The notes below the pieces were generated by a model, which made no database searches, was not told the origin of the DNA, and saw only the letters and a program-made list of their open reading frames with translations. Of a stretch of 64,000 nt of DNA, positions 6,573 through 28,332 are shown one piece after another. The DNA is taken from NCBI RefSeq assembly GCF_020966775.1, contig NZ_JAJKFV010000030.1:62001-126000 (forward strand), written 5' to 3'. This stretch comes from Rhodopirellula halodulae (lineage in GTDB: Bacteria > Planctomycetota > Planctomycetia > Pirellulales > Pirellulaceae). Both the position numbers and the translations under genes were made by a program. Position 1 is the first letter of the stretch. Every line of letters starts with the position of its first letter.

Positions 6573-8477
6573 ATGTGTGGTTTTACCGGTGGACTTTGGC
6601 AACGCGACGACCAAGCGATCTCGTCCGACTTGCTGACACGGATGACCAACGAGATCGCCCATCGCGGTCCCGACGATGCGCAGATTTGGATGGATCCTGA
6701 GCACCGAGATGCCACTGGGAAAACGCTTGGTGTCGGGCTGGGGTTTCGCCGTCTTTCGATCATCGATGTCGAGGGTGCCCGCCAGCCGCTTTCGAACGAA
6801 GACGGCAAAATCCGGATGGTCTTCAATGGCGAGATCTACAATTACGAAACGCTTCGTCGTCGCTTGCAAGGTGCCGGCCACCAATTCGCGACGCAGGGCG
6901 ACGGTGAGTCAATCATTCACCTGTACGAGGACGTTGGTACCGACTGCTTCGATTCGCTGAACGGGATGTTCGCGATCGCGATTTGGGATGCTCGTCGAAA
7001 CCGTATCGTTCTGGCGAGAGACCGTATTGGTCAAAAGCCGCTCTATTATTCCTACAAGAACGGGAAATTGGTTTTTGCCAGCGAGCTGAAAGCCCTTCGT
7101 TTGGTGCCAGGCATCTGCGAAGAGATCGACCCCAACGCGGTCGATGAATTCCTAACTTATCAGTACATCCCTCACCCGGGGACGATCTTCAAAGGAGTCC
7201 ACAAGCTGCCACCGGGACACTTCGCGGTCTTGGATGAACGCGGCTTGCGGGTCGAACGCTACTGGAACTTCGATCCTTCGATCGAACGCCCGATTTCGCG
7301 CGGAGAAGCCATCGAACGCGTTCGTGAATTGCTCTCGGATTCGGTGCGTCTGCGGATGCGAAGCGATGTTCCGCTGGGAAGCTTTCTTTCCGGCGGGATC
7401 GATTCCTCGTTGATCACGGCGTTGGCGGGCGACCACACCGACACCGCGCTGCGGACGTTCAGCATTGGTTTTCCGGTCGCAGAGTTTGACGAGACCAAGT
7501 ACGCAGCCCAGGTGGCTGAACATTTGAAAACCGATCACACGCGGTTCGAGGTTCAGCCGAGCGGCATTGATATCCTGGAAAAGCTTGTGTGGCACTACGA
7601 CGAACCCTATGGTGATTCGTCCGCGGTTCCAACATGGTATTTGTCCAAATTGACCCGTGAGCGAGTCACGGTTGCTCTATCAGGAGATGGCGGCGACGAG
7701 TTGTTCGCCGGCTACGAACGTTACCGTGCGCTGTGGATGAGCCAAAAGATTGCCCGGTTGTTTCCGCTGCATCGAGTTCCCGGGATTGGGCTGGTTCAGA
7801 AGTTGCCGGATTCCAATCGCCGTCGATCTGTCGTTCGGCGAGCCAAGCGTTTCTTGGAGGCGATCGATCAACCGGTGGTTCGCCGCTACATGAACTGGTT
7901 GCAGATCTTTCCGGAATCCATGCGAGCCGACATGTACAACGACGATTTTGTGCGGTCGTTGCCAGGGCATGACCCGGTCGATTTTCTGGAGTCTGTCTGG
8001 GCCCGCAGTGAAGGTCGCGACGTGGTGACGCGAGCGTCCACGTCCGACATCTTGTCGTATTTGCCGTGTGATCTTTGCACGAAAGTCGACATCGCGTCGA
8101 TGGCTCATGGTTTGGAAGTTCGCCAACCGATGTTGGATCACCGAGTCGTGGAGCTCGCGGCTTCGCTACCCGTGGATGTGAAGTTTCGAGGACGCCGTGG
8201 GAAGTTGATTCTGCAAGACGCATTTGGCGATCGAATTCCGGCGTCGATTTTCACTCGACCGAAAATGGGCTTTGGTATCCCCATTGGTCAGTGGTTCCGT
8301 GAAGATTTCAAACCGCTCGTGCATGACACGATGTTGGCCAACGACGCAAGGATTCGAAACTATTTCCGTCCGGATGCCATCGCGGACTTGGTGCGGTCGC
8401 ATGAGTCCGGTGAGCAGAACCACGGCTATCGGCTTTGGAACTTGCTGGTGCTGGAAACCTGGCTTCGACAACTCTAG
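6573..8477 (+). CDS. asnB: asparagine synthase (glutamine-hydrolysing)
   Basis: 634-aa class II amidotransferase. It begins MCGF, giving the N-terminal Cys2 nucleophile after Met removal, with a glutaminase domain to about residue 210 (RGPDD, FNGEIYN). The C-terminal synthetase domain carries the PP-loop FLSGGIDSS near residues 270-278 and SGDGGDELFAGYERY. Expected reaction: Asp + Gln + ATP to Asn + Glu + AMP + PPi. The length is slightly above classical AsnB, so a role modifying another carboxylate, as in cell-envelope amidotransferases of this family, is possible. It stands alone, 71 bp after the CNNM gene. Confidence 0.9.
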   Translation: MCGFTGGLWQRDDQAISSDLLTRMTNEIAHRGPDDAQIWMDPEHRDATGKTLGVGLGFRRLSIIDVEGARQPLSNEDGKIRMVFNGEIYNYETLRRRLQGAGHQFATQGDGESIIHLYEDVGTDCFDSLNGMFAIAIWDARRNRIVLARDRIGQKPLYYSYKNGKLVFASELKALRLVPGICEEIDPNAVDEFLTYQYIPHPGTIFKGVHKLPPGHFAVLDERGLRVERYWNFDPSIERPISRGEAIERVRELLSDSVRLRMRSDVPLGSFLSGGIDSSLITALAGDHTDTALRTFSIGFPVAEFDETKYAAQVAEHLKTDHTRFEVQPSGIDILEKLVWHYDEPYGDSSAVPTWYLSKLTRERVTVALSGDGGDELFAGYERYRALWMSQKIARLFPLHRVPGIGLVQKLPDSNRRRSVVRRAKRFLEAIDQPVVRRYMNWLQIFPESMRADMYNDDFVRSLPGHDPVDFLESVWARSEGRDVVTRASTSDILSYLPCDLCTKVDIASMAHGLEVRQPMLDHRVVELAASLPVDVKFRGRRGKLILQDAFGDRIPASIFTRPKMGFGIPIGQWFREDFKPLVHDTMLANDARIRNYFRPDAIADLVRSHESGEQNHGYRLWNLLVLETWLRQL

Positions 8478-24672: not shown

Positions 24673-26052
24673 CTATTTCAAATCCGCTGAAAATTGGATG
24701 GCCTGGTTGGGCAAGATGGCATCGCTGACAATCTTCAGATTGTCCGAGGTCGGGCGTGACGCGATCCGGTCGATCGTGCAGGTGCGAGTTTCTCCTGGCA
24801 ACAATCCACGCAAGCTCTGATTGGACCGGACCCCCTCCATCTCGAAATAGGCGTTGCGATAGATGGGGGCGACGCCTTCGTTGGTCACCTGCAACTCCAG
24901 ACTCACTTGGCCGTTCTGTTTGATCGCTTCCGCCTTGGTGACGCGAAAGCGATAGCCCATCGACATGCTGACGTCCTGAATTCGCGGCATCGTTTGATAG
25001 CTGGGTTGGTCGTTCCCGATCATGAAAGAAATGTGGAACTGCCGAACCGCATCCTCGACCGAAACACCGTGAGGCCCGTTGGGCGAAAGGGCCAATTTCT
25101 GGTCGCGGCGAGTGTAATAGTTGAACTCGCCGCCACCCGCTTGCCGCTGCCAACGATCACTTCCGAAGGCGCGCCAGTTCTCTGCATTCCACTTGGAGTG
25201 TTCTTTGGACAGAAACGAATCATCGAACAAGCCGTATTCGAGGGCCAGCAGGTCATCTGAATTCGCGATGGGAGTCGCCTCATCGTCCGCCGCATCAATG
25301 CTGATCATCCAAGGCAGACTGTCAAATTGCTGATCAAGGTGCTTCAGAAATTTGGATTGGAAGTCTTTGGAGGGGAACGTGTCGCCAAGCTTCATCGGTC
25401 CATCGTAGATGTGATACTCGGACCACAGCCCGAAACCGGTTTGCAGGTAGGCGATGCGAGGATCGTTGTCGTAGCGTGACGCGAACTCGGTGTAGAAATC
25501 CAACACGAACTGTTGAAAGCCCTCGTGGGACCAATCGCAGAAGTGAGTTTTCTTGCCCTCGCTTTTGGCAACCGTCTCGTTGTAACCCGGTAAGTCCAGT
25601 ATGAATTGAGGAACCGTGGTTTTCTTGCCTGGGTAGACAAAGCGAAATCGCAGCACCGCCTGATGAGAACGTGACGCGATCTCGTCCAGCAGCTTTTCAA
25701 TCGCGGTGAAATCCCATTGGCCGGGACCGACCGCGACCTCGTCGTAACCGCAATAACGAAATTCCAGCGAGATCGCATCGGTCGCCACGTCTTCGTGGTC
25801 GTGCCAGAGCACCACTCCGGTCATTGGCTGGACCGAGTCGATTTCCGCCTGCAACGGAACCGATCGACGGATCTCAGCCGACGGTTCGGCAGCACTCGCG
25901 GTGACGCAAACCAAAACGATTGCGACTTGCACCGACGACCAAATCGCAAACGCACGCGATCCGTTGCCGGCCCATCGCGAATGAAATTGCGAAGTCAGTT
26001 GTGAAGTCTGTGTCAGTCGGGAAGTCGATCGAGAAACGCATGAGTTCTTCAT
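24673..26052 (-). CDS. exported TIM-barrel glycoside-hydrolase-like protein (DUF4832-like)
   Basis: 459 aa, ATG start. A hydrophobic segment near residues 35-55 (ending ASA) probably serves as signal peptide after a polar N-terminus. The body resembles a (beta/alpha)8 glycosidase-like fold: SLEFRYCGYDEV, a helix LLDEIASRSHQAVLRFRFVYP, then FASRYDNDPRIAYLQTGFGLWSEYH, where the Glu of LWSE sits like a barrel acid residue. The C-terminal ~120 residues form a beta-sandwich (GYRFRVTKAEAIKQNGQVSL, LLPGETRTC). This is most like DUF4832-type proteins; the family assignment is tentative and no substrate can be named. It overlaps the preceding small gene by 4 bp. Confidence 0.6.
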   Translation of the reverse strand: MKNSCVSRSTSRLTQTSQLTSQFHSRWAGNGSRAFAIWSSVQVAIVLVCVTASAAEPSAEIRRSVPLQAEIDSVQPMTGVVLWHDHEDVATDAISLEFRYCGYDEVAVGPGQWDFTAIEKLLDEIASRSHQAVLRFRFVYPGKKTTVPQFILDLPGYNETVAKSEGKKTHFCDWSHEGFQQFVLDFYTEFASRYDNDPRIAYLQTGFGLWSEYHIYDGPMKLGDTFPSKDFQSKFLKHLDQQFDSLPWMISIDAADDEATPIANSDDLLALEYGLFDDSFLSKEHSKWNAENWRAFGSDRWQRQAGGGEFNYYTRRDQKLALSPNGPHGVSVEDAVRQFHISFMIGNDQPSYQTMPRIQDVSMSMGYRFRVTKAEAIKQNGQVSLELQVTNEGVAPIYRNAYFEMEGVRSNQSLRGLLPGETRTCTIDRIASRPTSDNLKIVSDAILPNQAIQFSADLK

Positions 26053-26339
26053 TCAAAGTCCGCCGGTTCTTGTTTAATTTGTGCGATGATCCGTTTGGCT
26101 TCCTCCGCATCGCGTTCCAGGGTTTTGACCTGGACCCAACCCGGTGCTTCAGCTCGGAAACCAGCGGTGAAACCACCGACCGCAACCGCGCGGATGCCCG
26201 CGTCTGCCAAAATGCTGACCAGCACGGTTGCAGCGGGCTCGTTGGAGCGTTCCGCAACGGTGACCAAGGTGGCATCGTCCAGATCCAACTTCGGATCGGC
26301 CGGTTGATTCGGGTCATGCGGTGGAATCGATTGAGTCAT
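26049..26339 (-). CDS. small DUF2007-like protein
   Basis: 96 aa from ATG 26339. The N-terminal ~22 residues are Pro/Asp-rich and the rest forms a compact alpha/beta unit: TLVTVAERSNEPAATVLVSI, GIRAVAVGG and VQVKTLERDAEEAKRIIAQI. This matches the pattern of DUF2007 putative signal-transducing proteins, which are small ferredoxin-like folds. Its stop overlaps the next start (ATGA at 26049-26052), so it is probably translationally coupled to the glycosidase-like gene. Specific function unknown. The 290 bp upstream (26340-26629) separate it from the divergent kinase gene and hold no evident gene. Confidence 0.75.
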   Translation of the reverse strand: MTQSIPPHDPNQPADPKLDLDDATLVTVAERSNEPAATVLVSILADAGIRAVAVGGFTAGFRAEAPGWVQVKTLERDAEEAKRIIAQIKQEPADFE

Positions 26340-26629
26340 TGTGAATTTCCTGGTGAAAAGCGATTGCCATCGGAAAGGCCCGCCCACGCCGGTTCTCGGA
26401 ATGATGCGAGCCGCCTTGCGATCGCAGTCACCAGGATACAACAACGGGAAGCGATGTTTGCTAAAAGCTTCGCTTTACGCATTCCTTGACCGATGAATGG
26501 CTTGGCACCTACTTCGATGAAGCAGATTGCGGCTCTAAGAAATACATTGGTTGACGAAGCTTTTTGCGAGTCGATGAGACGACGTTTCTGCAGTGGTCGC
26601 GAGGACAATCTTCGCGATACAATCTCGGC

Positions 26630-27613
26630 ATGAACAACGAATCCACCATCATCCTCGCGGGCACTGACAACGACATCCCTTCGCCTCCACCACATGGGCT
26701 GAAGCGATACACAGGGCTTCGTGAGATGGCGCGCGGGGCCACCGCCGTGTTGCAATCGGGCGTGGATTCAGTCATCGGTCGCACGGTCGCCATCAAAAAG
26801 TTGCTGCCCGAAATTCGCACCGATCGGTACGAGCGTCGACGCTTGCTTCGCGAAGCCCGCGTGACGGCTCAGTTGCAGCACCCCAACACCGTTCCGGTCT
26901 ATGAGATTGGCGACGATGATTTGCAAGGTGTTTACTTCACGATGAAGCGAATCTCAGGGGAAAACCTGTTTGAATCGCTGAAACGAATTGCTCGCAAGGA
27001 TGAACAGGCCGTCGCCGCGTTTCCGCTGCAACGTCGGCTCGAAATCGTTGCCGATGCTTGCCAAGCGTTGGCGTACGCGCATGCTCGCGGAGTGATTCAT
27101 CGTGACGTGAAGCCCGAAAACATCTGGGTGGGGAACTTCGGCGAAGTCATCTTGTTGGACTGGGGCGTGGCGAAGGTTTGGGGACACGCCGATGACGCGC
27201 AAGCCCTGCACCGCCAGCAAATGCAGCCTGAACACGAAACCAAAACCGAAAGCCAACTGCAGACACTGACCGGCGGCGGTCAGCGACCAGGCACGCCGCT
27301 GTACATGTCACCGGAACAGGTCAACGGCAATCGCGGGATTGATGAACGCACGGATATCTTCAGCGCTGGCGTCGTGCTCTACGAAGCCTTGGCAATCCGT
27401 GAACCGTTTCGAGGTCGCACGATCGACGAAACGTTCGACAACATCAAGCACGCCGACGTTCCGCCACCCAGTGAGAAGTCGCCTCAATACGAAATCCCCA
27501 AAGAAGTCGATCGCGTGGTGATGAAAGCAATCGCGAAGAAGCCAGCCGATCGGTATCAATCCATGCGAGAGTTGATTGCCGAAATTCGTTCGGTCTCCGT
27601 CACGGTCGCGTGA
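26630..27613 (+). CDS. serine/threonine protein kinase
   Basis: 327 aa from ATG 26630; the frame opens at 26564, but the kinase homology begins later. It is a Hanks-type kinase with the VAIKK lysine, the catalytic loop HRDVKPEN (Asp159), a DWG motif instead of DFG (Asp177), and GTPLYMSPEQ in the activation segment. The Gly-rich loop is degenerate (MARGATAVLQSG). There is no transmembrane segment, PASTA or repeat domain, so this is a minimal soluble kinase. Its stop overlaps the GTG start of a stand-alone GyrB-type TOPRIM gene (GTGA at 27610-27613), so the TOPRIM protein is a candidate partner or substrate. Confidence 0.92.
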   Translation: MNNESTIILAGTDNDIPSPPPHGLKRYTGLREMARGATAVLQSGVDSVIGRTVAIKKLLPEIRTDRYERRRLLREARVTAQLQHPNTVPVYEIGDDDLQGVYFTMKRISGENLFESLKRIARKDEQAVAAFPLQRRLEIVADACQALAYAHARGVIHRDVKPENIWVGNFGEVILLDWGVAKVWGHADDAQALHRQQMQPEHETKTESQLQTLTGGGQRPGTPLYMSPEQVNGNRGIDERTDIFSAGVVLYEALAIREPFRGRTIDETFDNIKHADVPPPSEKSPQYEIPKEVDRVVMKAIAKKPADRYQSMRELIAEIRSVSVTVA

Positions 27614-28332
27614 GTCAGCGGTACTTTGCACCGTATGGTCGGGCCCCGGTGCACTATCCGCTGGAATCGACACAGCGAACCGGGGTGGCACTGGCGGATA
27701 CGGAACTGATCATCGTCGAAGGCGATAGCGCGGCCAAGTCGGTCAACCAAGTCCGAGATGCAACTCGTCAGTCGGTGTTGGCGCTCCAAGGTAAACCGAT
27801 GAACGTCGGGAAAGCTTGCCATTCGGTGCTGCTCAAAAACGACATCCTTCGGCGTTTTGCTTGCACGTTGCTCGGGCGAAAAATTACGCCGATCGAAGAT
27901 TGGAGCGTTCCGCTAGCTCAGGCCGAATCTTGTCGGTACGGGCGAGTGGCGATCTTGATGGACCCCGATGCGGATGGGATTCACTGCGGCGTGTTGGCGT
28001 TGGGGATTCTGCTGCGATTCACGCCGGAGCTGCTTCGCCAGGGTCGTGTGAGTGTGGTTCGGCCGCCAATGATTCTGTTTCGTGTTGAAACGGCATCGGA
28101 AGAAAACCCGGTGCGAACGTTTGTCGCTTCGAATCCCGAACATGCAAAACGCGTCGAGCAAAAACTCCGCGAAGCCGGTGTCCAGCGATTCGAACGTTTT
28201 CGACATCGCGGACTTGGTAGCATCCCTTCAGAGATCCTGAGGCATCACTGCGTGCAGCCCAACACCCGTGCGGCGGATGTGATGAGTTTTGAAGAGGCTC
28301 AAACCGCTGTCGCGATGTTCGGTGGTCGCTGA
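27610..28332 (+). CDS. stand-alone GyrB/ParE-type TOPRIM protein lacking the ATPase domain
   Basis: 240 aa, GTG start overlapping the kinase stop. The whole protein matches the C-terminal part of type IIA topoisomerase B subunits. TOPRIM metal residues are intact: VEGDSAAKS (Glu37) and DPDADG (Asp118, Asp120, Asp122). LQGKPMNVGKA matches GyrB GKxLNVxKA, and the tail FRHRGLGSIPSEIL, followed by an LRxxC..NTR-like end, matches the GyrB YKGLGEM region. The GHKL ATPase and transducer domains are absent, and the preceding gene is a kinase instead. Intact metal ligands argue against decay. It could cap or regulate a topoisomerase complex or act as a nuclease-like TOPRIM. Confidence 0.85.
   Translation: MSQRYFAPYGRAPVHYPLESTQRTGVALADTELIIVEGDSAAKSVNQVRDATRQSVLALQGKPMNVGKACHSVLLKNDILRRFACTLLGRKITPIEDWSVPLAQAESCRYGRVAILMDPDADGIHCGVLALGILLRFTPELLRQGRVSVVRPPMILFRVETASEENPVRTFVASNPEHAKRVEQKLREAGVQRFERFRHRGLGSIPSEILRHHCVQPNTRAADVMSFEEAQTAVAMFGGR

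Follow-up and report, generated by a model that had tools for sequence, protein, structure and literature searches.

The window analysed here, a 64,000-nucleotide stretch of the Rhodopirellula halodulae genome (contig NZ_JAJKFV010000030.1, positions 62,001 to 126,000), carries a gene for a 240-amino-acid (aa) protein which, judged from its sequence, derives from the C-terminal half of GyrB/ParE (the TOPRIM domain and most of the tail) and belongs to a family of stand-alone proteins. This family is old and widespread, older and wider than the pairing with a Ser/Thr kinase gene that the window displays; of the two, the stand-alone TOPRIM family is the larger finding, and the coupling to a kinase was added at the level of the genus. 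The best reading of the family's job is that of a B' subunit of type IIA topoisomerase, for which we infer both the partnership with GyrA and the phosphorylation.

The standard view of gyrase is of an ATP machine with two subunits. A family that is old, under selection and reduced to the cleavage half of GyrB, in planctomycetes and proteobacteria alike, implies either that GyrA has a second, ATP-free use or that the catalytic site of GyrB has been put to a new one. Through the kinase overlap, the question of phospho-control of DNA topology in planctomycetes can be approached directly. The genes also carry a warning for annotation: they resemble gyrB and are not gyrB.

The stand-alone TOPRIM family

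Pfam models at E≤1 matched the 240-aa protein through Toprim alone, with no HATPase_c (PF02518), transducer (PF00204) or PF00986, which bears out the preliminary description of the locus in its claim that the GHKL ATPase and transducer are absent. The predicted fold retains the cleavage core of TOPRIM and tail. The same description had listed Glu37, Asp118, Asp120 and Asp122 as intact metal residues; all four were found at these places and, together with K62, N65 and H125, they are invariant in 90/90 aligned members. Such invariance disfavours a pure decoy or inhibitor, which would fill the GyrB site on GyrA and block supercoiling without chemistry, the kinase acting as a switch. The conserved cleavage-core fold would suit a decoy, as would the long GyrB present alongside in 17/17 genomes bearing a stand-alone copy, but a decoy need not retain a metal site, and we consider this explanation improbable.

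The portrayal of the protein as TOPRIM plus C-terminal tail proved correct in part. A GLGEM-like stretch and the next helix are retained, whereas the end of the tail is missing: the median number of residues beyond R220 is 22 in the family versus 44-48 in the 22 GyrB/ParE rows reaching their end, and an EPRRxFIE-like end occurs in 0/90 members (three have long tails of other sequence). Relative to GyrB/ParE, the family has fixed letters of its own, Q60, P63 and A121 in 90/90 members and P119 in 89/90; C214 is also family-specific. Invariant or near-invariant GyrB/ParE positions are changed from R/K to Q60, from I/V to P63 and from the GLGEM Glu to S, G or A. A GyrB-like motif of the KLxDC/S type, found in GyrB after the transducer, precedes EGxSA in 50/90 members.

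A profile built from 17 members found 129 relatives in the genome collection, 80 of which were kept for study. They come from planctomycetes and from members of the Proteobacteria (Ottowia, Lysobacter and Brachymonas, for instance); in each of five of the latter genomes, matches at ParE level and at GyrB level were recorded as well. Within the order, a stand-alone copy is present in 75/396 genomes (E≤5.4e-55; one copy, in G307, has an in-frame stop) by a count read by hand from a table with 5-7 candidates scored per genome. In three further genomes of the order the copy is partial or contains a stop; the next score level (E about 1e-35 to 1e-42) otherwise consists of ParE-like frames of ~630-720 aa. 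In a tree of 78 rows obtained with a quick method, the 54 stand-alone rows fall on one side of a branch with a Shimodaira-Hasegawa-like approximate likelihood ratio (SH-aLRT) support of 100, apart from the GyrB/ParE of both phyla. This branch measures about 1.3 changes per column, counting both sides of the drawn root. Five contigs of metagenome-assembled genomes titled Klebsiella pneumoniae or Candidatus Kuenenia (L120, L097, L111, L119, L121) carry the TOPRIM gene; the title of L119 at least looks wrong.

Domain fusion was considered for the long frames (332-597 aa) seen at 16 loci and rejected: they look like run-through, with an ATG 25-33 codons before EGxSA in 14 of the 16. A phage origin was also rejected: of the 85 pattern matches in a scan of viral contigs, two were relatives, both weak (27% and 25%). 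Phage matches numbered 1639 and plasmid matches 173 records, all <60% identical. Among the 15 phage and 15 plasmid matches listed, named genes are mostly topoisomerase or gyrase B, next to two "toprim domain-containing" genes of bacillus plasmids and a copy from Thiodictyon. The latter, a 226-aa member encoded on plasmid pTs417 of Thiodictyon syntrophicum (L266:3947-4627) and annotated merely as a toprim domain-containing protein, lies 30 bp past an RNB ribonuclease gene.

This location would agree with a metal-dependent nuclease, nickase or other phosphotransfer enzyme, one that works by itself or has a partner other than a topoisomerase and may act at the replisome. Also in line with such an enzyme are the intact DxDxD plus Glu site, the lost GyrB C-terminal end and the family-specific Q60, P63, P119, A121 and C214. 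A connection with the replisome could be read from QLxLF (QLPLF or QLQLF), which resembles the sliding-clamp-binding motif, near the C-terminal end of 4/90 members (the related L077, L099 and L120, plus L105), and from a divergent dnaX-type gene adjoining at three loci (3 of 75 neighbour proteins scanned). QLxLF was found neither in the tail of the window protein nor in those of 48 further loci read. Against a nuclease, more of the GyrB fold is retained than a bare TOPRIM core, and no RNB ribonuclease neighbour was found at any of the 80 kept loci. On balance, we regard this explanation as unlikely, if still a serious contender.

Table 1. Positions of the genes and sequence features discussed; unprefixed coordinates refer to the window
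Feature	Position	Strand	Remarks
Minimal Hanks-type Ser/Thr kinase, 327 aa	26630..27613	+	ATG start, TGA stop; Pfam Pkinase E=2e-35
Stand-alone GyrB/ParE-type TOPRIM plus partial tail protein, 240 aa	27610..28332	+	GTG start; Toprim E=6e-11
GTGA stop/start overlap of kinase and TOPRIM frames, 4 bp	27610..27613	+	
N-terminal motif Yx[KR]xP[VT]HY[PA], residues 9-17	27634..27660	+	Both Tyr invariant in 13 kinase-coupled members
Catalytic-site Glu37 of EGDSA	27718..27720	+	Invariant in aligned members
Asp118-Pro-Asp120-Ala-Asp122 metal motif	27961..27975	+	Pro and Ala family-specific
Ser204, at the GLGEM Glu position of GyrB/ParE	28219..28221	+	Ser in 13/13 of genus, 64/90 of family
DUF2007-like gene, divergent, upstream of kinase	26049..26444	-	PF09413 E=1.7e-5, just under cut-off
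dnaX-type clamp-loader gene (370 aa) by stand-alone TOPRIM, other strand	L109:4575-5684, L114:4558-5667, L126:3131-4240	-	
Large kinase upstream of TOPRIM	L049:9795-12946 (G025); also L226, L225		After ECF (extracytoplasmic function) sigma gene in G025

A kinase gene joined to the TOPRIM gene

The kinase and TOPRIM frames of the window share four base pairs (GTGA), as first described, an arrangement which suggests translational coupling. A stand-alone copy was present in 17/60 genomes searched, the window's own counted, and a close TOPRIM homologue in 12/12 other genomes of the genus. In all 13 genus genomes examined (the window and these 12) the kinase gene lies directly upstream and both frames are intact. 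The 4-bp overlap, GTGA or TTGA, is seen in 12/13 (the window and 11 of the 12 others), the exception being L047 with a 12-bp gap and an ATG start. Flanking genes were compared in loci of up to 18 kilobases (kb). The five closest genomes have all six tested flankers at the same places; in the seven others the DUF2007-like gene alone adjoins the kinase (6/7), one of the seven also having a DUF4832 match 5 kb off, and in L048 the pair persists without any of the six. The DUF2007-like gene, at its place in 11/12 other genus loci and so more widely than the other five flankers, is possibly part of the kinase-TOPRIM unit.

Sequence divergence was assessed in two subgroups of 6 and 5 genomes (11/13 of the genus). 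Mean pairwise aa identity is 0.96 and 0.88 for the kinase and 0.79 and 0.69 for the TOPRIM protein; the corresponding median ratios of nonsynonymous to synonymous divergence (dN/dS), rough values as dS is near saturation, are 0.02 and 0.05 for the kinase and 0.09 and 0.12 for TOPRIM. The TOPRIM gene is under purifying selection and is neither a chance frame nor a decayed gene. Together with the intact frames in 13/13 genomes and the separate clade, this makes it exceedingly improbable that the gene is a gyrB broken or in decay, or an artefact of the assembly. No broken full-length gyrB was found here, and elsewhere in the same genome lie frames for a long GyrB (896 aa) and for a ParE-like protein (667 aa), besides two A subunits; the initial verdict that this is not a decayed gyrB stands.

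Pkinase is the sole domain found in the 327-aa kinase. The protein keeps the VAIKK lysine, HRDVKPEN, DWG (not DFG) and GTPxYMSPEQ, with a degenerate Gly-rich loop; K56, H157-N164, D177-G179 and T222-E229 are invariant in 13/13 kinases. The motifs of Hanks-type kinases are all present: the Lys, HRD, D(F/W)G and one of APE type. A second, paralogous minimal kinase (G000:C4:326622-327590, minus strand; E=1.9e-129 to the kinase profile) was recorded, also in several related genomes.

Homologues of the kinase (E≤1e-80) occur in 60/149 genomes of the taxonomic family, six of them in the genus. Gene context was read at 20 loci out of the 54 non-genus genomes. The next gene, on the same strand, is asnB in 12/20 (L207-L213, L216-L218, L221, L222; calls based on the protein start, with Pfam confirmation for L210 only), and a glutamine-synthetase-type gene precedes the homologue in 6/20 (Pfam-confirmed in two). 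The asnB-linked homologue is possibly a nitrogen-related kinase; the window's own asnB (about 6573-8471) is 18 kb away from the kinase. None of the 20 non-genus loci has a TOPRIM gene beside the kinase homologue, and therefore kinase and TOPRIM appear to have been brought together in this genus. The expectation of a conserved kinase-TOPRIM adjacency holds in 13/13 genus genomes and fails at most other loci: among 89 distinct loci (96 less 7 duplicates; flanks of up to about 6-9 kb, less near the end of a contig), 12 have the coupled kinase (genus), 2 a different kinase and 75 no adjacent kinase.

Other kinases were found near TOPRIM genes or their relatives. The 2 loci with a different kinase, which are close relatives, have it 135-182 bp ahead of the TOPRIM match, and three of the 75 loci have a kinase 0.6-2.5 kb downstream. 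Genus g14 (G025, G451, G438) has a different, larger kinase shortly upstream of TOPRIM, and in G272 (L205:6625-12176), one of the 20 non-genus loci read, parC and parE are followed on the same strand by the kinase homologue, about 80 bp separating parE from the kinase. Two kinase-TOPRIM pairings and one kinase-ParE adjacency, spotted post hoc, hint at a functional link. No excess over chance was demonstrable for the g14 or G272 adjacency, and one such neighbour is unsurprising, because there are many kinases per genome and tens of contexts.

The pair might also be an operon of convenience, co-expressed without phosphorylation of the TOPRIM protein. We find this explanation, which is compatible with the other readings, plausible if doubtful. 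It would account for the kinase homologue sitting elsewhere in other genera (by asnB in 12/20) and for most TOPRIM members having no kinase neighbour; the kinase is also far better conserved than TOPRIM, which suggests that it has other substrates. Yet the overlap has been kept in 12/13 genomes despite near-saturated dS, L048 retains the pair and none of the six flankers, and the genus-specific N-terminal motif (Table 1) coincides with kinase pairing.

A proposed ATP-free B' subunit

Published work describes relaxation without ATP by GyrA combined with GyrB47, an artificial fragment of GyrB. Because the natural protein corresponds to almost the same portion of GyrB, we tentatively favour, at somewhat less than an even chance, a type IIA topoisomerase B' subunit that lacks the ATPase and acts together with GyrA, under probable kinase control in Rhodopirellula-type genomes. 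The TOPRIM protein would dock on GyrA (or on ParC where present) and provide the metal site needed when the tyrosine of the A subunit cleaves DNA; the resulting gyrase variant might relax or modulate DNA without ATP, in a GyrB47-like manner. In Rhodopirellula-type genomes, the overlapping kinase would be made together with the TOPRIM protein and would probably regulate it by phosphorylation.

A more specific version, in which an ATP-free subunit family exchanges with GyrB on GyrA, so relaxing or re-tuning supercoiling, and is switched in Rhodopirellula by the kinase, with Ser204 as one possible site, is in our view distinctly unlikely. Phosphorylation of Ser204 would restore a negative charge, since GyrB/ParE carry the GLGEM Glu at this position. 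Ser204 is a candidate phosphosite and not evidence of phosphorylation, as Ser is also common in kinase-less members. GyrB itself appears in bacterial phosphoproteome tables, for example as B. subtilis S400 (PMC4754617).

The putative B' subunit seems to have no need of ParC in G022, G043 and family f8, because a single A subunit was found in addition to the stand-alone gene in each of the first two and, among the 5-7 candidates scored per genome, no ParE-level match in family-f8 genomes. This point is weak, however: G020 has ParE and yet a single A subunit was found, so that a second one can be missed in a draft assembly. Other observations weigh against a B' subunit more directly. Absence of the last ~22 GyrB/ParE residues and the changes at (near-)invariant positions suggest that contacts with GyrA or DNA may be altered or lost, and GyrA may no longer be the partner; its interaction with the TOPRIM protein, like the activity, is something we infer. 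Nor does any neighbour of the TOPRIM gene recur outside the genus: 75 of the 146 neighbour proteins listed were scanned, and each Pfam family was seen in at most 4 of them. As for phosphorylation, the kinase partner is confined to the genus, its homologues lie most often by asnB, and this usual nitrogen-gene context suggests other substrates; the kinase-parE adjacency of G272 is a single genome.

Comparison with known systems

The kinase shares its domain and motifs with minimal Hanks-type kinases. Its top NCBIfam match, the chlamydial-type PknD model PRK13184, scores far under the cut-off (221.9 versus 839 bits). As to kinship with TOPRIM nucleases (OLD, RNase M5, RecR, DnaG), type II topoisomerases come first among the matches listed for the TOPRIM protein, in sequence and in structure, although a family missing from such a list is not thereby shown to be more distant. 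The TOPRIM fold and the metal residues E, D, D, D are common to the TOPRIM protein and GyrB/ParE. The latter have the GHKL ATPase (PF02518) and transducer (PF00204), both absent from the 240-aa protein, and PF00986, without a match at E≤1 in this protein, scores 2.9e-25 in the G272 ParE. NCBIfam scores of the 240-aa protein are 101.5 versus a cut-off of 740 bits for PRK05644, 90.4 versus 882.4 for gyrB and 87.9 versus 723.35 for parE_Gneg. The open-licence literature (titles, abstract starts and passages) yielded no report of a stand-alone GyrB-type TOPRIM family or of its kinase.

In T4-type phages the large topoisomerase subunit is divided (gp39/gp60) and has a partner ATPase part. Unlike these divided enzymes (T6 8ylu, T4 8yo3), the TOPRIM protein has no orphan transducer to go with it in 14 genomes: every one of the 26 PF00204 matches falls at a GyrB or ParE, with one or two such sites per genome (the GyrB frame of G412 being in two pieces). 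The TOPRIM protein is therefore excluded as half of a divided B subunit.

The closest parallel in extent is a B-subunit fragment. The nu fragment of topoisomerase II prime is a proteolytic C-terminal half of gyrase B. Both nu and GyrB47 span nearly the same region as the 240-aa protein, namely the TOPRIM domain and tail that follow the transducer, with no ATPase. The 240-aa protein lacks both the insert that GyrB carries in proteobacteria and planctomycetes and the ~22 terminal residues; unlike GyrB47, it is naturally encoded by a gene of its own and belongs to an old, separate clade.
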